This document shows, one piece after another, positions 20,200 through 34,942 of a stretch of DNA of 34,942 nt; position 1 is the first letter of the stretch, and every line of letters starts with the position of its first letter. Both the position numbers and the translations under genes were made by a program. The notes under the pieces are model-generated. The model was not told the origin of the DNA, did no database searches, and was given only the letters and a program-made list of their open reading frames with translations. The stretch lies in the IMG/VR virus record IMGVR_UViG_3300006919_000188, positions 1 through 34,942 of that record; one strand, given 5' to 3'. The stretch is from a virus.

Positions 20200-20210
20200 G
20201 GTGTGTGGTT
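20200..20210 (-). promoter_or_regulatory. ACCACACACC start motif, polymerase gene
   Basis: AACCACACACC on the minus strand, 10 bases before the polymerase ATG. It supports the start at 20,189. Confidence 0.65.
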
Positions 20211-22568: not shown

Positions 22569-22791
22569 CATCTCCCTCGGCATCCGTACCATCTTTTTTA
22601 TCCTCCTCGTCTAATTTTTTTATGTAATTATTTAAACCCTCACGGATCGCGATATTTACAAAGTCCTCGTCTGTCGCAATATCCCGGCCCCAATCCGTCA
22701 GCATTTTAAAAGTGTCATCCTCCATCGCCAAATCCAACTCGGAGTACACCACATCCCGAAACTCTAAGAGTTTAATTATCGGTAGATCCAT
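22558..22791 (-). CDS. Hypothetical acidic protein, 77 aa
   Basis: Overlaps the upstream gene by 20 bp and the downstream one by 11 bp. The N-terminal helix (LPIIKLLEFRDVVYSEL) and a second helix (FVNIAIREGLNNYIKK) precede a very acidic tail (DEEDKKDGTDAEGDD). Not recognised. Possibly a DNA-mimic-like or partner protein, by charge alone. Confidence 0.6.
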   Translation of the reverse strand: MDLPIIKLLEFRDVVYSELDLAMEDDTFKMLTDWGRDIATDEDFVNIAIREGLNNYIKKLDEEDKKDGTDAEGDDGN

Positions 22792-23065
22792 CGTCGATCG
22801 CTCTCGCTAACAGGATTAACATTTTGTGGACATTCGCGATCTCCGCCTGCAAGGCATGAATCTGAAACTCTTGGAAAGCGAAGTAAGTAACCAAAGAATC
22901 ACGGTCTTTTGTATCCTCTTCGTGCTTTAACATTTCTACTACTCGCTCACGAATCTCTTCGAGCTGAGCAGACGCTTCCTCGGGCAAATCGTCCAAGGTA
23001 TCTAGGGTTTGAAACTTCTCCCTGCTTAATTCAGGGTCGGGCTCATAATCTGGATTGAATCTCAT
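22772..23065 (-). CDS. Hypothetical helical protein, 97 aa
   Basis: First gene of the operon that runs to the split nuclease. A proline-acid N-terminus (NPDYEPDPEL) is followed by two long helices (EEASAQLEEIRERVVEML and VTYFAFQEFQIHALQAEI), probably a coiled coil. It is preceded by the ACCACACACC motif 18 bases before the ATG and by a perfect 20-bp palindrome at 23,105. No family is recognised. Confidence 0.62.
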   Translation of the reverse strand: MRFNPDYEPDPELSREKFQTLDTLDDLPEEASAQLEEIRERVVEMLKHEEDTKDRDSLVTYFAFQEFQIHALQAEIANVHKMLILLARAIDDGSTDN

Positions 23066-23083: not shown

Positions 23084-23094
23084 GGTGTGTGGTT
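23084..23094 (-). promoter_or_regulatory. ACCACACACC start motif, operon leader
   Basis: AACCACACACC, 18 bases before the ATG at 23,065, just downstream of the palindrome at 23,105-23,124. Confidence 0.6.
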
Positions 23095-23273: not shown

Positions 23274-23349
<76 letters not shown>

Positions 23350-23357
23350 GAATAAAA

Positions 23358-23433
23358 TGGTGGAGCCGGACGGGATCGAACCGACGACCTCCTGAATGCA
23401 AATCAGGCGCTCTTCCAACTGAGCTACGGCCCC
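23358..23433 (-). tRNA. tRNA-Ala (anticodon TGC)
   Basis: 76 nt with the CCA encoded. Acceptor GGGGCCG/CGGCTCC with one G-U pair, anticodon stem CCTGA/TCAGG with loop TTTGCAT, T-loop TTCGATC. It lies 8 bp from tRNA-Thr and 23 bp behind the helicase stop, so it is probably processed from the helicase transcript. Confidence 0.95.
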
Positions 23434-25994: not shown

Positions 25995-26005
25995 GGTGTG
26001 TGGTT
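25995..26005 (-). promoter_or_regulatory. ACCACACACC start motif, coiled-coil gene
   Basis: AACCACACACC, 6 bases before the ATG at 25,988; it decides the start. Confidence 0.65.
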
Positions 26006-28633: not shown

Positions 28634-28670
28634 TCGTTTGTTCTACAAATCGGTACATTCAATTAACAAA

Positions 28671-28698
28671 AAGGGCCGAGGTTACAGCCTCAGCCCTA
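28671..28698 (-). terminator. Hairpin with T tail, minus-strand direction
   Basis: On the minus strand, AGGGCTGAGG-CTGTAA-CCTCGGCCCT is followed by TTTTTG, one mismatch in ten pairs. It stands about 40 bp upstream of the HNH gene. It could end antisense transcription or attenuate the HNH gene. Confidence 0.55.
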
Positions 28699-28710
28699 AG
28701 TATCTATGAC

Positions 28711-28721
28711 AACCACACACC
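28711..28721 (+). promoter_or_regulatory. ACCACACACC start motif at 28,724
   Basis: AACCACACACC, 2 bases before the ATG of the small leader frame. Confidence 0.55.
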
Positions 28722-28723
28722 AT

Positions 28724-28840
28724 ATGAGGATATCAACAGATGACTCTTTCTCTACGTTCAAAGCTTTTGCTCTGTCAATCGCATTTTATAACGCATGCGA
28801 TCCGCTAGCTACTATCATTAAAGCTAGTTTTTTAAGGTAA
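28724..28840 (+). CDS. Possible 38-aa leader peptide
   Basis: MRISTDDSFSTFKAFALSIA and onward (FYNACDPLATIIKASFLR). The ACCACACACC motif lies 2 bases before its ATG, which supports translation. Its last third overlaps the duplicated promoter-like block, and its stop falls 1 base before the outer stem of the leader structure at 28,842. The second copy of that block has a one-base shift, so this peptide is not conserved there. It may be a leader peptide linked to the structure, or chance. Confidence 0.3.
   Translation: MRISTDDSFSTFKAFALSIAFYNACDPLATIIKASFLR
28800..28824 (+). promoter_or_regulatory. Promoter-like block, copy A
   Basis: ATCCGCTAGC-TACTATCATTAAAGC; 25 of 26 positions match 34,130-34,155 apart from one missing base. 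ATCATTAAAG resembles the T3-type single-subunit RNA polymerase promoter core (CTCACTAAAG, 8 of 10). No such polymerase is visible in the window. Confidence 0.5.
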
Positions 28841-28841
28841 A

Positions 28842-28901
28842 CCCGTTCCGTTTCCCCATTTCATGGGGTGTAATGAATGAATTCATTCCATGTGGAACGG
28901 G
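28842..28901 (+). ncRNA. Structured leader RNA, copy A
   Basis: Outer stem CCCGTTCC (28,842-28,849) / GGAACGGG (28,894-28,901). Inner hairpin CCCCAT-TTC-ATGGGG (28,854-28,868). Second hairpin GAATG-AATT-CATTC (28,875-28,888). Together a three-way junction. The same fold is at 34,169-34,232 with changed bases in the stems. Upstream is the promoter-like block, downstream the accessory operon. Confidence 0.55.
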
Positions 28902-28932
28902 TAGGTGCAGTCTACCTAACACATTAACTAAC

Positions 28933-28943
28933 AACCACACACC
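28933..28943 (+). promoter_or_regulatory. ACCACACACC start motif at 28,947
   Basis: AACCACACACC, 3 bases before the ATG of the 21-aa membrane peptide. Confidence 0.6.
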
Positions 28944-28946
28944 AAT

Positions 28947-29012
28947 ATGAACTACGACATACTAATACTACTCATGCCATGGGCCATCGTGCTCTACATG
29001 ATCCACCTATAA
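28947..29012 (+). CDS. 21-aa single-helix membrane peptide
   Basis: Starts MNYDILILLMPWAIVLYMI and ends HL. It is one hydrophobic helix. The start motif is 3 bases upstream, and its stop TAA overlaps the next copy of the motif (TATAACCACACACC). Tight bracketing by two motifs is the main evidence. It is the first frame after the structured leader. Function unknown. Confidence 0.5.
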   Translation: MNYDILILLMPWAIVLYMIHL

Positions 29013-29021
29013 CCACACACC
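29011..29021 (+). promoter_or_regulatory. ACCACACACC start motif at 29,037
   Basis: AACCACACACC, 15 bases before the ATG; it overlaps the stop of the 21-aa peptide. Confidence 0.6.
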
Positions 29022-29036
29022 AACACCAAAACCATC

Positions 29037-29435
29037 ATGACAACATTAGATACAAATACTGATACGCTAAACAGCATACCAAAACTTAAACAAGCAGGAT
29101 TCACCGGTCCTGACGCAAGCCTCGATGTATCACTCTTCGACTACGGCTTAGCATACAAAGTAACCAATGATGAAATACTATTCATATACGGAACTCAGTA
29201 TGGATTCAACGAGTACATACGCTTCGACCGCTGCACAATCAAAAGAAACATAAATATCCAAGAAGAATACGATTGGGCTGATCTACCGGCTGTTCACTCG
29301 ACGATGGGATATTCCAACAATGATTGGAATGCACTGCCGCTCGAACAACAAATAACCGATCTTCTCAATTACTATGGCTACGAAAATATCTTCGGATCCA
29401 GCTATTGGGAAGGCTTCGAAATCAAACCATCATGA
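29037..29435 (+). CDS. Hypothetical protein, 132 aa
   Basis: Start at ATG (MTTLDTNTDTLNS). The chain is acidic and aromatic (YDWADLPAVHSTMGYSN, LLNYYGYENIFGSSYW), with no signal or membrane segment. No domain is recognised. It ends with ATGA overlap into the next gene. The accessory position and small size fit host-takeover or anti-defence proteins, but nothing in the sequence proves this. Confidence 0.6.
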   Translation: MTTLDTNTDTLNSIPKLKQAGFTGPDASLDVSLFDYGLAYKVTNDEILFIYGTQYGFNEYIRFDRCTIKRNINIQEEYDWADLPAVHSTMGYSNNDWNALPLEQQITDLLNYYGYENIFGSSYWEGFEIKPS

Positions 29436-29677
29436 CAACTATCAACTACAAAGGCTTCACAATTGATGCCGAGCTCGGAGAAGATCCCCGTGTAGACATC
29501 ACCATAACAAAAACTGTTCGTGGTGAACGATACATCGGCTCAATCGGTGCAGCCGAACACGAAGGCTTAAGTAATCACGATTGGACTAACCAAATACAAG
29601 TACCGATCAAAGTTCTAAACAAAGCGTATGAACTCGAAACATCTCTACTAAAAAATAACCACACACCAAATAACTAA
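29432..29677 (+). CDS. Hypothetical protein, 81 aa
   Basis: True start at the ATG overlapping the preceding stop (MTTINYKGFTIDAELGED). A longer frame upstream is a shadow. The N-terminal half is beta-type, with a VDITITKTVRGERYIGSI strand pair, and the C-terminus is helical. Its last codons (NNHTPNN) are the ACCACACACC motif of the next gene read as protein. Function unknown. Confidence 0.58.
   Translation: MTTINYKGFTIDAELGEDPRVDITITKTVRGERYIGSIGAAEHEGLSNHDWTNQIQVPIKVLNKAYELETSLLKNNHTPNN
29657..29667 (+). promoter_or_regulatory. ACCACACACC start motif at 29,681
   Basis: AACCACACACC, 13 bases before the ATG, inside the 3' end of the preceding gene. Confidence 0.6.
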
Positions 29678-29680
29678 CAT

Positions 29681-30067
29681 ATGACAAACGAAATCGAACA
29701 GATTGGCGTACTTACACGCTACCCATATCGAATGAGCCGACCCGGCAATGTACTCATGCAAATGCATCGTAATGACCTCGTCAATATCGAAGCAGCCATG
29801 GCAAACGAACTAAAAAAACCAACCGATAATCACACCGGTTACATACTAACTACCTATAATGAACCAGATCTCAACAGTACACTACAGTGCCACAATCGCA
29901 TCTGCTACTTCTTCGCAGATTCCCAAGCATATCTATGTACAAATCTACAAACAACCAACGAACTAAACTACAGTCTCGTTGTACAAAAACCAATCTATCA
30001 TCGAATACACGCCGACGACTTAGAACCATTACGCTCGGTCGATCTATTCTTAAACCTAACAAACTAA
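29681..30067 (+). CDS. Hypothetical protein, 128 aa
   Basis: MTNEIEQIGVLTRYPYRMSR, then VNIEAAMANELKKPTDN and several beta-type stretches (GYILTTYNEP). Cys residues at LQCHNRICYFF. No family. The motif precedes the start by 13 bases. A minus-strand frame over it is a shadow. Function unknown. Confidence 0.58.
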   Translation: MTNEIEQIGVLTRYPYRMSRPGNVLMQMHRNDLVNIEAAMANELKKPTDNHTGYILTTYNEPDLNSTLQCHNRICYFFADSQAYLCTNLQTTNELNYSLVVQKPIYHRIHADDLEPLRSVDLFLNLTN

Positions 30068-30091
30068 TATCATGAACATAATCGAACTAAT

Positions 30092-30102
30092 AACCACACA
30101 CC
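30092..30102 (+). promoter_or_regulatory. ACCACACACC start motif at 30,112
   Basis: AACCACACACC, 9 bases before the ATG. A 12-codon frame (30,072-30,110) reads through it and is not called. Confidence 0.6.
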
Positions 30103-30111
30103 AAAAATAAT

Positions 30112-30393
30112 ATGAAAACTACAAAACAACAAATCACAGCATTATTAGGCAAAATAACAGACGCAAATGAAATGTTAATAATCGCTAACCTCGCAAATAA
30201 CGCCGCTAAAGAATTAGCACAAACAATCAAATATAATCTATCTATCGGACAAAAAGTAAAAATCTCAAGCGGCCCTAACAACCTAAATGAAACAGGTGAA
30301 GTAATCAAAATCAACCGTACTCGTGCTGTCTGTAAAATCGATGGTCGTACAGAAAAATACAACGTGCCATTCAGCATGCTAACTATCATCTAA
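30112..30393 (+). CDS. KOW-like small protein
   Basis: 93 aa. A helical N-terminus (TKQQITALLGKITDANEML) is followed by a beta-barrel-like C-terminus: IGQKVKISSGPNNLNETGE and VIKINRTRAVCKIDGRTE. This has the KOW/SH3-like alternation found in short phage proteins of the 'GtVvKiNrk.a.V' type. Such domains bind nucleic acid or RNA polymerase. The domain call is by pattern. Confidence 0.58.
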   Translation: MKTTKQQITALLGKITDANEMLIIANLANNAAKELAQTIKYNLSIGQKVKISSGPNNLNETGEVIKINRTRAVCKIDGRTEKYNVPFSMLTII

Positions 30394-30397
30394 TACT

Positions 30398-30408
30398 AAC
30401 CACACACC
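30398..30408 (+). promoter_or_regulatory. ACCACACACC start motif at 30,419
   Basis: AACCACACACC, 10 bases before the ATG of the DUF932-like gene. Confidence 0.6.
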
Positions 30409-30418
30409 ATAAAATATC

Positions 30419-31276
30419 ATGTACTATATTAATCAATCCCAAGAAGTATCCTACGATCAACTCAAACAAGTTCCTGCAGCCCCTACATGCGACATCAATC
30501 CAAGCAAGCGTTGGAAACCAGTCCATCACCATACACTCGTTGACCTAGTCAAAGACAGTGTTCGCTCATGCGGATTCAATATCCATAGCGAAAAATACGG
30601 TATCGATAAACATCGTGACATGTTCGCCATGCTCAAGCTCGAACGCGAAGACTATGACAACGGTACATTCCGCAATGTCATCGGCATAAGAAACAGTCAC
30701 AACCAACGATTCAGTGCTCAACTTGTTGGCGGATCAAATGTCATGGTCTGCGACAATCTTGCATTCTCAGGTGAATTCAACTGTCGTCGTCAACACACCA
30801 CGCACATCATGCGCGACTTACCTCGTATCGTATACCAATTAACAAACGATGTAGTGTCTTCCTATAATGTACAATCTAACCGTTACGACGGTTACAAAAT
30901 GACCGAACTAGACAACTCAGATGTCGCTAACATCATGAACAAAGCTACTCGTAACAACTTCGCCATCTCCGGCGGTCAGTACAACAAAGTACTAGATGAA
31001 TATGAAAATCCGCAGCATGATGTATTCGAACCAGGCAACGCATGGTCACTATTCAATGCGTTTACTGAAATATACAAAAATTACAACGGTGCTGATGTTC
31101 GCAAATCAATCAACTTGCACAACATCTTCGATAATCACTGTGCCGATGCTATCGAACATCTCAATACCAGCTACAATCCTGGATACAATTACGACGGTGA
31201 CCTACTCGACGACGATCTAGACCCACAAGATGTACACGCTGCTCAAACACAAAACGCACAGCCAGCACTAATATAA
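30419..31276 (+). CDS. DUF932-like phage/plasmid protein
   Basis: 285 aa. KLEREDYDNGTFRNVIGIRN, SHNQRFSAQLVGGSNVMVC, then DNLAFSGEFNCRRQHT match the core of DUF932 (TIGR03299-type) proteins carried by phages and plasmids. Some DUF932 relatives inhibit host recombination or CRISPR-type defence, but the role of this one is unknown. A long helical middle and an acidic tail follow (YDGDLLDDDLDPQD). The start motif lies 10 bases upstream. Confidence 0.72.
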   Translation: MYYINQSQEVSYDQLKQVPAAPTCDINPSKRWKPVHHHTLVDLVKDSVRSCGFNIHSEKYGIDKHRDMFAMLKLEREDYDNGTFRNVIGIRNSHNQRFSAQLVGGSNVMVCDNLAFSGEFNCRRQHTTHIMRDLPRIVYQLTNDVVSSYNVQSNRYDGYKMTELDNSDVANIMNKATRNNFAISGGQYNKVLDEYENPQHDVFEPGNAWSLFNAFTEIYKNYNGADVRKSINLHNIFDNHCADAIEHLNTSYNPGYNYDGDLLDDDLDPQDVHAAQTQNAQPALI

Positions 31277-31282
31277 AAATTA

Positions 31283-31489
31283 GTGGACTACGGCCGTGCA
31301 GTTAAGATCCTCCGCAATCGTAAAAAATATACACCTGCAGAGATCAAAAAAGCTACACAGGTCTACAACAGCGTAAACAGAATAAGCCGCTGCCCTACAT
31401 GCAATGCTTACCAGTATTCATATAGCAAAGCGCCCTGTTTCCAGTGCCTCACAATATACTCAACAAAATTAAATAAATATTATCCATGA
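31283..31489 (+). CDS. Zinc-ribbon small protein, 68 aa
   Basis: GTG start (MDYGRAVKILRNRKKYTP), 6 bp after the DUF932-like stop. A helical, basic N-terminus is followed by CPTCNAYQYSYSKAPCFQC, a CxxC-x(12)-CxxC zinc knuckle. It overlaps the gp88-like ATG (ATGA). Small nucleic-acid-binding protein by motif; partner unknown. Confidence 0.6.
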   Translation: MDYGRAVKILRNRKKYTPAEIKKATQVYNSVNRISRCPTCNAYQYSYSKAPCFQCLTIYSTKLNKYYP

Positions 31490-32238
31490 CAACAAAACTC
31501 AATTGGCAACAAGGTAATGCAAAATTACCTAAACGCATTATTCACTTCTCATTAGCATCGGGGCATTCGTGCCCTGCTGCTAAAGAGTGTCTATCCAAAG
31601 CCGATCCTACTACCGGTAAGATCACAGACGGTCCTGAAACAATCTATCGTTGCTACGCTGCAACAATGGAAGCCCGACACAGTGCAGTACGACGCAATCG
31701 TAATATTAACTTCAACATCTTACGCAAATGCTCAAGCAAGCAGATGTTCACAAAGTTACATGCAAGCTTACAACCACTGCATGACAAATACATCAAAAAC
31801 CACGGCCAGCGACCTATCATCCGCGCCCATGTCGGTGGTGACTTCTTCAATAAAAGTTACTTCCTTGCGTGGATGCGCTTAGCCAAAGAGTTCAAGCCTA
31901 CAAAGTTCTATGCATACACCAAACGCATCGACCTCTGGCTTCAGAACCTCGACCTGATACCTTCAAACTTCGAACTCAATGCTAGCCGTGGCGGACGGTT
32001 CGATCATTTAATTGATGAGCATAACCTCAAGTCAGCAGAAGTTATCTACTCTTATGAAGAAGCCGTAAGAAAAGGTCTCGAACTTGATCACGACGACAGT
32101 CATGCATACACCCCTGGACCATCCTTCGGTCAATTAATCCACGGCACCCAACCTGCCGGATCTGATGCAAGCAAAGCATTGCGTAACCTCAACAAACACC
32201 ACGGATACACCGGCTATTCTGCTGCCAAGTCCGTATAA
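31486..32238 (+). CDS. Gp88-family phage protein
   Basis: 250 aa. IIHFSLASGHSCPAAKECLS, KADPTTGKITDGPETIYRC, then RAHVGGDFFNKSYFLAWMRL and KFYAYTKRIDLWLQNL. This is the gp88-type order (conserved Cys pair, 'VGGDFF', 'YAYTKR'), found in mycobacteriophages and marine phages, of unknown function. The conserved Cys/His could hold a metal. A 4-bp overlap couples it to the zinc-ribbon gene. Confidence 0.78.
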   Translation: MTTKLNWQQGNAKLPKRIIHFSLASGHSCPAAKECLSKADPTTGKITDGPETIYRCYAATMEARHSAVRRNRNINFNILRKCSSKQMFTKLHASLQPLHDKYIKNHGQRPIIRAHVGGDFFNKSYFLAWMRLAKEFKPTKFYAYTKRIDLWLQNLDLIPSNFELNASRGGRFDHLIDEHNLKSAEVIYSYEEAVRKGLELDHDDSHAYTPGPSFGQLIHGTQPAGSDASKALRNLNKHHGYTGYSAAKSV

Positions 32239-32251
32239 CACATAACTACAT

Positions 32252-32776
32252 ATGAATAACAATAAAAACTATCATCAAACACGCGCTGCTAAAATTGTTG
32301 ATGAGCCAAAAGTAACAGATGATGACGGCTGTCTAGACTCATGCAGTAACAATGAAGGTAAATGTCCTAACGGATATATATGCGAACTTCACGAAGACGA
32401 ACGCGATGAACCAAAAATAACCAACGACTTCGATCACTGGATCACAGAACTCGAAAAAATAAAAATAAATATGACTGACTGGTTATCATATAATACAGAA
32501 AACTTCCAAGAAGAGTATCTCATCGATGAAGCACGGAAAAAAGTAAAAAGAGCTGTACAATCGATCCAAGAAAACAAAACAAAAAATGTCACAGCCTTAC
32601 CCACAGCAAACTGTGTAACCGCCGTACTTGATTACATCTTATACAGCGAAATGGGTGGCACCTATGACGCCACTGACTCCTGGCATTCAACCTATCAACT
32701 ATTAATGGAGCTACGCAACGACAAGATCGACCCCGACGATCTATCATATGTCTCCGATCTCAAACCTCTGCATTAA
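32252..32776 (+). CDS. Hypothetical acidic protein, 174 aa
   Basis: Cys-rich start with CLDSCSNNEGKCPNGYIC, then a helical body (WITELEKIKINMTDWLSYN, ARKKVKRAVQSIQENK) and an acidic end. Cys spacing suggests a metal site or disulphides. The family is not known. Starts 13 bp after the gp88-like gene. Confidence 0.55.
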   Translation: MNNNKNYHQTRAAKIVDEPKVTDDDGCLDSCSNNEGKCPNGYICELHEDERDEPKITNDFDHWITELEKIKINMTDWLSYNTENFQEEYLIDEARKKVKRAVQSIQENKTKNVTALPTANCVTAVLDYILYSEMGGTYDATDSWHSTYQLLMELRNDKIDPDDLSYVSDLKPLH

Positions 32777-32777
32777 T

Positions 32778-32786
32778 CCACACACC
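32778..32786 (+). promoter_or_regulatory. CCACACACC motif, remote from start
   Basis: Just after the stop of the 174-aa gene; the next ATG (32,844) is 57 bases away. It is the only copy not within 20 bases of a start codon. Confidence 0.45.
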
Positions 32787-32843
32787 ATCGACCTGAGCAT
32801 GTCGTAACAACTGCTCATATATTAACTATAACATTAAATAATC

Positions 32844-33194
32844 ATGAGCAATCTAATCATCGACCCAGCCATCGAACAAAAACTAATCGATCTAGCTATT
32901 GATCACATCAAAAAAGTAGAAGCCAATCCTGAAGTAAAAACTAATGGCGACAACTTCGACTATTGGGACAGTTACAAATTACCTGACGGTAACTTCATCG
33001 ACTACAATATCTACTGCGGTGACGAATGGTGCGAAATCAAACAAGACTCATCAGGCGAATATGTTTATACAAATCCTAAAACATGGAGTTGGGATGTAAC
33101 CTGTTACCATGTAGACCCGCCAAACAAACATAATAAATACCATCAAATAGATACCGGTATATACAAACACATATTACACTACTCAAACAATTAA
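32844..33194 (+). CDS. Hypothetical protein, 116 aa
   Basis: MSNLIIDPAIEQKLIDLAID helix, then an acidic, aromatic beta region (NFDYWDSYKLPDGNFIDYN, DEWCEIKQDSSGEYVY). Rich in Asp/Tyr/Trp/Asn, like many small phage takeover proteins. Not recognised. The next start motif follows its stop directly. Confidence 0.55.
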   Translation: MSNLIIDPAIEQKLIDLAIDHIKKVEANPEVKTNGDNFDYWDSYKLPDGNFIDYNIYCGDEWCEIKQDSSGEYVYTNPKTWSWDVTCYHVDPPNKHNKYHQIDTGIYKHILHYSNN

Positions 33195-33203
33195 CCACAC
33201 ACC
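33193..33203 (+). promoter_or_regulatory. ACCACACACC start motif at 33,206
   Basis: AACCACACACC, 2 bases before the ATG; TAA of the preceding gene is its first half. Confidence 0.6.
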
Positions 33204-33205
33204 AA

Positions 33206-33436
33206 ATGAATAACCAAATAAAACAAATACCAATAACAGAACTAATCAAAATACAAGACTTCGTAAATGAAACACCGTCATGCTCAAGTGACAGCTCATA
33301 TCTAAGCGACGGAGAAATCTTAGATCATATAATGGATAAACTTAATCATCTAACAACAGATACTCCATACATTGATCAATGGGCTAATGAACGCTTCATA
33401 GACAAAACATATAACAATCAACTACACACCAAATGA
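33206..33436 (+). CDS. Hypothetical acidic protein, 76 aa
   Basis: MNNQIKQIPITELIKIQDFV then SDSSYLSDGEILDHIMDKL. Its last codons (QLHTK) are a copy of the next start motif read as protein. ATGA overlap with the next gene. Function unknown. Confidence 0.5.
   Translation: MNNQIKQIPITELIKIQDFVNETPSCSSDSSYLSDGEILDHIMDKLNHLTTDTPYIDQWANERFIDKTYNNQLHTK
33422..33430 (+). promoter_or_regulatory. CTACACACC variant start motif at 33,433
   Basis: 2 bases before the ATG and within the coding region of the preceding gene, which shows that the motif can be kept inside an ORF. Confidence 0.5.
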
Positions 33437-33627
33437 ATATAACAACCTTACAAATAGCTGTATCAGGCAAAGCTGAAGACTTCTATGTATTCGAAGGATG
33501 GCATGATGACGATGCTCTCAAGCCTTCCATCCAATTATGGTGTAATCAAAACGGTCTAAACTACGAAGACCATGACCAATCCTGGTATATGATGATGAAC
33601 CATACAACCATTGATAAATTGATATGA
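33433..33627 (+). CDS. Hypothetical protein, 64 aa
   Basis: MNITTLQIAVSGKAEDFYVF strand-type start, EGWHDDDALKPSIQLWCNQN, and a Trp/Tyr-rich end. Coupled by ATGA to both neighbours. Function unknown. Confidence 0.5.
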   Translation: MNITTLQIAVSGKAEDFYVFEGWHDDDALKPSIQLWCNQNGLNYEDHDQSWYMMMNHTTIDKLI

Positions 33628-33686
33628 AAGAAATAGCTATACCAACAAAAGACGCTTACCTTAAAGAAAGAGAATACATACGATGA
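33624..33686 (+). CDS. 20-aa linker ORF in an ATGA chain
   Basis: MKEIAIPTKDAYLKEREYIR. It overlaps the previous stop (ATGA) and the next start (ATGA), so it joins the two genes without a gap. Real peptide or re-initiation spacer cannot be distinguished. Confidence 0.4.
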   Translation: MKEIAIPTKDAYLKEREYIR

Positions 33687-34045
33687 CGCACGAAGAATTA
33701 ATCATATGGGCATCCGGTACATTCCTTACCGAACCGTTGCCTACCAACTATAACATCTGGACTGATGATCAATTCAATGAATTCATAGAAAATCACGCAA
33801 CAGATGCATTCGAAAACTGGCCCGCAGCAGACATCTATGAAGCAATACAAGGTCTAGCACACGATGCAGAATACAATCTCATTCGTAAGTTAATACCGCT
33901 CAAAGCTAGTCATAGTTTTCAATGCCATTACGAAGCCTACATAGAATCCATGCTAACCGGTAAATATTCTTACGAAGACATACTTAAATACGCACACATC
34001 GCATGCCACGATCAAGCATGGCTCATGCAAGCACTAAAATCGTAA
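33683..34045 (+). CDS. Hypothetical protein, 120 aa, last of the cassette
   Basis: Helical, acidic, with Trp/Ala-rich segments (THEELIIWASGTFLTEPLP, DAFENWPAADIYEAIQGLA) and ICHDQ-like end (IACHDQAWLMQALKS). No family. Followed 32 bp later by a strong terminator, which closes the accessory operon. Confidence 0.55.
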   Translation: MTHEELIIWASGTFLTEPLPTNYNIWTDDQFNEFIENHATDAFENWPAADIYEAIQGLAHDAEYNLIRKLIPLKASHSFQCHYEAYIESMLTGKYSYEDILKYAHIACHDQAWLMQALKS

Positions 34046-34077
34046 CGCCTTTGTTCAGTAGTTAGTCCAATACACAC

Positions 34078-34113
34078 GCCTCGTCAGCCTCACCCGCTGA
34101 CGGGGCTTTTTTT
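34078..34113 (+). terminator. Rho-independent terminator closing accessory operon
   Basis: GCCTCGTCAGC pairs with GCTGACGGGGC (one G-U) around CTCACCC, then TTTTTTT. Confidence 0.92.
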
Positions 34114-34129
34114 ATACCGAGTCAATGCC

Positions 34130-34155
34130 ATCCGCTAGCATACTATCATTAAAGC
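34130..34155 (+). promoter_or_regulatory. Promoter-like block, copy B
   Basis: ATCCGCTAGCATACTATCAT followed by TAAAGC; same as copy A plus one A. It stands between a terminator and a single-gene unit, where a promoter is needed. Confidence 0.55.
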
Positions 34156-34168
34156 CTCTCTCTTCTAA

Positions 34169-34232
34169 AGTTAGTTCATTTCCTCATTACATGAGGCGTA
34201 TTGAATGAAATTCTTTCACTCAAACACTAACT
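34169..34232 (+). ncRNA. Structured leader RNA, copy B
   Basis: Outer stem AGTTAGT (34,169-34,175) / ACTAACT (34,226-34,232). Inner hairpin CCTCAT-TAC-ATGAGG (34,182-34,196). Second hairpin GAATG / CTTTC with one mismatch (34,203-34,217). Compared with copy A, the outer stem is all different yet paired, and one inner pair changed C-G to T-A. Confidence 0.55.
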
Positions 34233-34250
34233 ACAAAAAATATATAAATT

Positions 34251-34562
34251 ATGGCTAATTCACATATAGTAAGTAAAAAAGACCTCTCATCCTTCGAAGT
34301 CTTCAGCGTAGGCGAATCAAGTATCCTCTCAGTCTCCGACCTCAACGATAACTTAATTCACTACGGTATAGTCGGCGAAGCTGACACAAGTGTCAGCATC
34401 CCCGCCCACTCCATCTCGGTCAAGACCAAGAATGGAGATAAACTCAGCCGTGCTTTTGACGACAAGCTTACAAAAGCAGGCCTCGAAGAAGGTGACGAAT
34501 TCATCGCCTCCTTCATTGAAAAGAGTGGCTACGCCAATCTTTCCAAAATCGCAAAAAGATAA
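34251..34562 (+). CDS. Hypothetical protein in its own transcription unit, 103 aa
   Basis: MANSHIVSKKDLSSFEVFSV. The sequence alternates beta-type (ESSILSVSDLNDNLIHYG, TSVSIPAHSISVKTKNG) and a helical end (DDKLTKAGLEEGDEFIAS). It may be a small barrel. It has a private promoter-like block, a structured leader and a terminator, so it is probably strongly or specially expressed. No family recognised. Confidence 0.6.
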   Translation: MANSHIVSKKDLSSFEVFSVGESSILSVSDLNDNLIHYGIVGEADTSVSIPAHSISVKTKNGDKLSRAFDDKLTKAGLEEGDEFIASFIEKSGYANLSKIAKR

Positions 34563-34581: not shown

Positions 34582-34615
34582 AGGGTCACAGGCTTGCGCC
34601 TGTGGCCCTTTTTTT
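34582..34615 (+). terminator. Rho-independent terminator after 34,251 gene
   Basis: AGGGTCACAGGC pairs with GCCTGTGGCCCT (one G-U) around TTGC, then TTTTTTT. The text after the T run (CTCCGAGTCAA) is close to that after the previous terminator (ACCGAGTCAA). Confidence 0.92.
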
Positions 34616-34942
34616 GCTCCGAGTCAAACCGTTGACTTAAGGCCACTGCCACACAAAATTCCATCTGATGCTTCTCAGGGATCAAGGGACGCGAAATGTT
34701 CCATTTCGGCCCGCTTAATCTCCTGATCAGTAACCAGATTCGGAATCTAGTGTGTCACCGCCCCTAAGTCGTTGACTCTAGGCTACTTGCTACACCAGCC
34801 CCATCACGATGTGACTGCTTTGCAACTAACCTTGCGATTGTGACCGCTATTGACACCGGCACACAGCCTACAGTGGGGCTACCCCCCACCTCCGCCCGGG
34901 TACCACTATCACTACCACTCGCAATCGCCTATCAATCACAGA
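34616..34942. other. Non-coding right end with direct repeats
   Basis: No gene is seen. It holds two copies of CGTTGACT..AGGC.ACT.GC.ACAC (34,630-34,654 and 34,770-34,795) and GTGACTGCTTT-GCAACTAACC (34,811-34,831), which resembles the arm repeats at attP, then GCGATTGTGACCGCTA (34,834). A GC-rich tail follows. Candidate for genome end, control region or part of a distant att system. Confidence 0.45.
34811..34850 (+). repeat. attP-arm-like repeats at right end
   Basis: Two imperfect copies of GYGACTG...GYRACTG-type units, with the same roughly 11-bp spacing as at 14,463 and 14,694. Confidence 0.4.

Follow-up and report, generated by a model that had tools for sequence, protein, structure and literature searches.

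We analyzed a window of 34,942 bases, the complete and linear IMG/VR record IMGVR_UViG_3300006919_000188, which probably represents about half of a phage genome of ~68 kb, judged from related contigs of 68.4, 68.8, and 68.9 kb. The window contains what is probably an early control region. A probable promoter for the host RNA polymerase and an RNA leader under selection face rightward, and a candidate small RNA that would control a regulon of genes carrying the start motif AACCACACACC faces leftward. An earlier reading of this DNA, the original prediction, had described the promoter block and the leader; it missed the candidate small RNA gene on the opposite strand beside block copy 1 and the matching gene-start motif. 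The material throughout consists of uncultured contigs, from which related block and leader sites were gathered by pattern scans and protein-guided scans. Searches of cultured phages gave no DNA match for the control region and no match for the capsid. Feature coordinates are collected in Table 1.

Structure and conservation of the leader

Both block copies are followed by an outer stem, an inner hairpin, and a second hairpin, as had been described, and the outer stems pair despite their different sequences (CCCGTTCC/GGAACGGG in leader 1, AGTTAGT/ACTAACT in leader 2). The inner hairpins read CCCCAT-TTC-ATGGGG and CCTCAT-TAC-ATGAGG, respectively. In RNAfold, the three-way junction forms in leader 2 (z −3.1); in leader 1 the outer stem is kept (z −2.4), but the fold of lowest energy has another pairing for the two inner hairpins. 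Homologous structures were found together with the block in about a dozen contigs of related phages, where the outer stems have been rebuilt with other sequences. The strongest by shuffling is that of L045 (GTTCTGTTCC/GGAACAGAAC, z −5.2); other examples are L044 (GACCGTCCT/AGGACGGTC, z −4.5) and L003 (GCCCCTTTC/GAAAGGGGC, z −3.5); a further rebuilt stem is AGTTAGAT/ATCTAACT. Since the same block and the same design recur with other sequences, the leader design is not a product of chance.

We aligned the leader helices by hand, as a MAFFT alignment misaligns the outer stems. Double, compensatory changes are present at 9 of the 10 pair positions of the outer stem, at 9/9 of the second hairpin, and at 1/6 of the inner hairpin. 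The outer-stem cells are paired throughout (87/87), a share that leans toward structure because the arms were chosen by hand. Judged from the compensatory changes, the leader structure is under selection, which upholds the proposal made for the leaders of the accessory operon and of the last gene.

The leader follows the block in both places, as claimed, but its distance is not constant: 18–33 nt separate the block from TTTCC, and 47 nt in L052. Most close relatives have the block, then UUUCC-n-CAUU-n-CAU, and then the second hairpin. In L004, L005, L021, L028b, and L037 the inner hairpin is not fully paired, while TTTCC-n-CATT-n-CAT or a close version of it is retained; with pairing partly lost and the sequence kept, this segment is conserved as sequence. 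The inner hairpin is mostly sequence-conserved, so UUUCC-n-CAUU is likely to be recognized by a sequence reader, either protein or RNA. An ATG after GAGG in several phages raised the possibility that the second hairpin is a leader peptide, which was ruled out for lack of conservation. Transcripts from the block would begin with this folded leader, comprising the outer stem, the UUUCC-headed inner hairpin, and the second hairpin, which would most likely serve to protect the 5′ end of the mRNA or to hold the polymerase during elongation.

The promoter-like block and its probable reader

The block, GCTAGC-N(1-2)-ACTATCATTAAAG, has only two copies in the whole window, at 28804 and 34134. In full it reads ATCCGCTAGC-(A)TACTATCATTAAAG (28800-28823 and 34130-34154), with one inserted A as the sole difference, confirming the near-identity and the exclusive occurrence at two sites that had been reported. 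When ≤2 mismatches were allowed, 33 matches were obtained in 486 kb versus 6 in the reversed sequence. The more distant phages L043, L047, L144, and L148 retain the block as GGCTAGCNACTATCAT without this leader, often in tandem, 26–41 bp apart; tandem copies occur in L008, L043, L045, L047, and L148. A coding origin of the block, which lies inside a 38-codon open reading frame (ORF), was ruled out, as relatives differ in frame and length. One scan of bacterial genomes yielded a single match lacking the surrounding elements, which was judged to be due to chance, as were near matches in L022, L023, L025, L031, and L033.

Every full block copy listed contains TATCAT, which is close to the TATAAT of sigma-70-type −10 elements, and a conserved box, GCTAGC, lies 3–4 nt before it. 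A promoter scan found no −35 hexamer at 16–18 nt from this −10. The block reads better as a host-RNA-polymerase promoter with TATCAT as its −10 and GCTAGC as an upstream box than as the phage-polymerase promoter previously suggested. As a conserved −35 is absent, copies of GCTAGC-N(1-2)-ACTATCAT would probably be read with the help of a phage factor, for which a 169-aa (amino acid) sigma-region-4-like protein conserved in the phage family is a candidate.

The block does resemble T7/T3-type promoters in being a short, conserved repeat of few copies ahead of phage genes, and its AAAG tail recalls the T3 promoter core. This likeness is not borne out in the relatives, which have TTGAAG, TTCAG, TACATG, or TGCATT in place of AAAG. 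The block also differs in sequence from T7/T3-type promoters. The spacer between GCTAGC and ACTATCAT varies (1–2 nt), so that the recognition sequence is neither rigid nor contiguous, and an indel of 1–2 nt between the block halves is ill suited to a single-subunit polymerase. Nor did the polymerase expected outside the window turn up: neither the window nor any of 16 related contigs of up to 71 kb matched Pfam RNA_pol (PF00940), whereas the T7 positive control in the same search scored E=1e-109. Several of these contigs (54–71 kb) are probably near complete, although contigs may be incomplete. A phage-encoded single-subunit RNA polymerase is thus a very improbable reader of the block. The block might instead be the operator of a repressor or activator, with the true promoter elsewhere, given that GCTAGC is palindromic, that tandem copies exist, and that the phages encode proteins read from their sequence as ribbon-helix-helix-like regulators. 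We consider this unlikely, as the tandem spacing shows no helical phasing, the block is always oriented toward leader and gene, and TATCAT is a near-consensus −10. Similarly doubtful is that the leader is an antitermination element like the put RNA of HK022, carrying polymerase through downstream terminators. It is structured, stands directly after the promoter, and holds the sequence-conserved UUUCC-n-CAUU segment, all of which would suit such a role, but a search of the plus strand from 28823 to 34078 gave no terminator-like site to be read through, and the leader also stands before single-gene cassettes that are closed by a terminator.

Probable promoter-leader cassettes

Copy 1 precedes the accessory operon, which it would open. 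Copy 2 lies between the last gene of this operon and the packaging operon, whose ~590-aa protein resembles a large terminase in sequence and position. The cassette formed by copy 2 would front the packaging genes with an exchangeable small gene: its cargo varies among close relatives (small genes of 103–125 aa), and terminators flank it on both sides. It looks like a portable terminator-promoter-leader-small-gene unit, that is, a moron-type cassette. The promoter-leader cassette would mark a portable unit by which small accessory genes are expressed, in phages for which no cultured close relative was found. The sequence CCGAGTC stands immediately 3′ of the terminator T run at 34078-34126 and 34582-34626, and also follows terminators in the related phages L005, L008, and L028, with or without a promoter block.

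A candidate small RNA diverging from copy 1

Adjoining copy 1, the minus strand of 28668-28778 holds, in this order, TTGACA, CATATGGTGTGTGGTT, and an intrinsic terminator. Its seed, GGUGUGUGGUU, is complementary to the start motif AACCACACACC. We compared 13 such loci, with about ten distinct sequences. The distance from TTGAC to the seed is fixed and that to the block varies, so TTGAC belongs to the leftward unit; for the same reason GTCAA was ruled out as a piece of the rightward promoter. CATATGGTGTGT(G/T)GTT is nearly invariant, conservation reaches past the 11-mer on either side, and the terminator stem covaries, with double changes in 8 pairs. In 11/11 tested loci, the seed hairpin has −8.8 to −15.9 kcal/mol in the leftward strand versus 0 to −4.3 in the opposite strand. 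The z score of the unit is −5.7 in the window and −6.6 in the related phage G009. The opposite-strand terminator is present at the small RNA loci and only very rarely at the remaining ~110 sites of the motif. A covariance model gave one strong match per phage (E ≤ 1e-13), the next best being at ~1e-6. Rfam had no match at this locus at E ≤ 1, the GcvB family included. By sequence, fold, and covariation, TTGAC, the seed hairpin, and the intrinsic terminator together probably constitute a small RNA gene.

The proposed start-motif regulon

With ≤1 mismatch allowed, the window holds 12 copies of AACCACACACC versus 0.5 expected. They lie mostly 0–18 nt ahead of a start codon and only at early and accessory genes (about ten starts), so that the conserved seed is complementary to several mRNAs close to their start codons; in other phages having AACCACACACC, copies are likewise mostly start-proximal. 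This phage has few Shine-Dalgarno sites, and motif-bearing starts mostly have none. Orthologues of the DNA polymerase, a 97-118-aa protein, the DUF932 protein, and a ribbon-helix-helix-like protein keep the motif. Predicted duplexes reach −21 to −25 kcal/mol with a phage's own seed and −17 to −19 with a swapped seed. Variation within the motif core consists mostly of A-to-G and C-to-T changes, which keep G-U pairing (AACCGCACACC, AACTACACACC); being plain transitions as well, they are weak evidence. Upstream of the start motif, several of the leftward targets carry a hairpin whose loop is CUGCAA.

A coupled change is seen in G009, where AACAACACACC stands both at the small RNA locus and in every exact copy at gene starts (7/7) and AACCACACACC is absent, while its nearest kin (G010 and L148; 100/100 support) carry AACCACACACC. 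On another branch, L159 (contig 3300018048_002354) has AACAACACACC gene-start motifs at 2243, 4452, and 7401 and is without AACCACACACC; its DNA polymerase and a 113-aa protein are preceded by the altered motif. If the proposed model is true, its small RNA seed is predicted to be GGTGTGTTGTT, not GGTGTGTGGTT.

In the cell, the seed would pair over 11–12 nt with AACCACACACC, which is probably a C/A-rich translation enhancer, ahead of the early and accessory starts, including that of the DNA polymerase. By covering the motif, the small RNA would lower translation of the whole set in the manner of GcvB, a direction of effect that we infer. The arrangement that our analysis makes most likely is a translational switch of the GcvB type, acting on a regulon of start-associated sequences. 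More speculatively, the regulon may be self-contained, the tags replacing the Shine-Dalgarno sequence and the co-evolving phage small RNA setting translation of the early set. Its action could even be positive, recruiting ribosomes to the tags in the role of a trans-acting adaptor, and start-associated sequences elsewhere among phages may have a similar explanation.

A rival account, which we regard as having a low probability, does without a trans-acting small RNA: AACCACACACC would be a translation signal to which the host ribosome, or a protein of phage or host origin, binds, the divergent copy an ordinary plus-strand gene start, and the leftward hairpin an attenuator of the leftward operon. 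The motif does occupy the position of a ribosome binding site, and a protein could likewise co-evolve with it in G009. Moreover, G013 (54 kb, perhaps incomplete) has about eight motif copies and no detectable small RNA, so the motif can exist without one. On the other hand, the ORF behind the divergent copy is unconserved, with a stop after 4–7 codons in L047, L003, and L004, the structure is confined to the leftward strand, TTGAC and the terminator keep fixed places around the seed, and conservation flanks the 11-mer on both sides. The proposed control region with its promoter, leader, and small RNA has, besides G013, further observations against it. Transcription from the block promoter and of the small RNA is inferred from sequence, and the small RNA promoter has a noncanonical −10 element. 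The seed lies partly inside a hairpin that must open, and by itself this hairpin scores modestly above shuffled sequences in stability (z −0.7 to −3.0). The complete coupled change is seen in one phage, the small RNA region of L159 lying outside its contig. Weak look-alikes of the small RNA are present in G001 (L041; 6328-6393, minus strand) and G010 (L129; 9634-9703, minus strand), and several relatives have the leader absent or cut down.

A weaker, second small RNA-like copy is also found in L154 (10108-10182, minus strand); those of L041, L129, and L154 are antisense to a leftward gene start.

Comparison with known systems

The start-associated sequence (SAS) of cluster K mycobacteriophages is a short asymmetric sequence repeated 11–19 times just before the starts of non-structural genes, of unknown function, and K1 phages have one reverse copy away from gene starts (PMC3203893; PMC11373665). 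The motif described here is likewise a repeated asymmetric sequence within a few nucleotides of non-structural gene starts, but its sequence differs and lacks the Shine-Dalgarno core held by SAS, and its reverse complement lies inside a promoter-seed-terminator unit that co-changed with the motif in one phage. Start-associated repeats have been a puzzle since 2011, their authors having left open whether the reader is RNA or protein; here, a candidate RNA reader is found in the same genome, co-changed with the tags in one lineage, and a reporter-gene test is feasible. In subcluster K1, the reverse SAS forms the loop of a strong, covarying, and conserved early-strand hairpin in a mostly non-coding gap (28655-28725 in L174, Adephagia, JF704105; eight other cluster K phages were likewise looked at). 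Cluster K was rejected as a further case of this kind: Ekdilam, Shandong1, and ShedlockHolmes have another loop with SAS unchanged, and since the loop is not kept complementary, it is not counted as support.

In enteric bacteria, GcvB has a G/U-rich seed that pairs with C/A-rich elements (ACA motifs) close to the start codon in many mRNAs, silencing elements that enhance translation (PMC3879156). The present candidate shares this seed-target chemistry. It differs in being encoded by a phage and directed at genes of that phage, in having no sequence relation to GcvB, and in having targets without Shine-Dalgarno sites, with repression being the presumed outcome. The phage RNAs OOP, sar, P1/P7 c4, and VpdS are comparable as small RNAs that pair with mRNA of the phage and may thereby control its programme; for c4, the pairing is close to a ribosome binding site (PMC12197685). 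OOP, sar, and c4 have one main target each, whereas the single seed described here matches about ten starts of one phage through a repeated tag. In the consulted parts of that survey, we found no phage small RNA that reads a repeated start tag (PMC12197685).

Table 1. Features of the control region and of the proposed regulon in the window
Feature	Position	Strand	Remark
Promoter block copy 1, GCTAGC-T-ACTATCATTAAAG	28804..28823	+	kept upstream of accessory operon in relatives
Proposed −10 TATCAT of block copy 1	28813-28818	+	
Leader 1, three-way junction	28841..28902	+	outer stem 28842-28849/28894-28901; inner hairpin 28854-28868; second hairpin 28875-28888
UUUCC of leader 1	28851-28855	+	
Intrinsic terminator of accessory operon	34078..34106	+	directly upstream of block copy 2
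Promoter block copy 2, GCTAGC-AT-ACTATCATTAAAG	34134..34154	+	
Leader 2, three-way junction	34169..34232	+	outer stem 34169-34175/34226-34232; inner hairpin 34182-34196; second hairpin 34202-34222
103-aa cargo gene of cassette 2	34251..34562	+	other small genes in its place in close relatives
Intrinsic terminator closing cassette 2	34582..34609	+	
Candidate small RNA, ~75 nt	28668..28741	−	presumed 5′ end; seed hairpin and terminator
TTGACA, proposed −35 of small RNA promoter	28773..28778	−	55-57 nt from seed in 13/13 loci
Small RNA seed GGTGTGTGGTT	28711..28721	−	complement of AACCACACACC
Small RNA intrinsic terminator	28672..28697	−	
Start motif AACCACACACC	28933..28943	+	before short ORF (ATG 28946)
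Start motif	29011..29021	+	before 29037-29435
Start motif	29657..29667	+	before 29681-30067
Start motif	30092..30102	+	before 30112-30393
Start motif	30398..30408	+	before 30419-31276 (DUF932)
Start motif	33193..33203	+	before 33206-33436
Start motif variant AACTACACACC	33420..33430	+	G-U compatible; before 33433-33627
Start motif	25995..26005	−	leftward operon
Start motif	23084..23094	−	before 22772-23065 (97 aa); orthologues keep motif
Start motif	20200..20210	−	before DNA polymerase (631 aa counted from ATG after motif)
Sigma-region-4-like protein, 169 aa	24754..25263	−	candidate phage transcription factor; conserved in phage family

Other features of the window

Two tRNA genes stand in tandem at 23277-23433 on the minus strand, between the helicase and other replication genes. 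On the plus strand, 32776-32830 carries an element, (A/T)CCACACACC-AUCGACCUGAGCAUGUCGUAACAACUGCUC, that is conserved in at least 5 phages and has no Rfam match; it is also found at L125 3093−, L129 2200−, L133 8335+, and L136 14240+ and in L052. It has a CGAC/GUCG stem, replaced in L052 by GGAC/GUCC, and the complementarity of its GAGCA loop to UGCUC downstream suggests an H-type pseudoknot.

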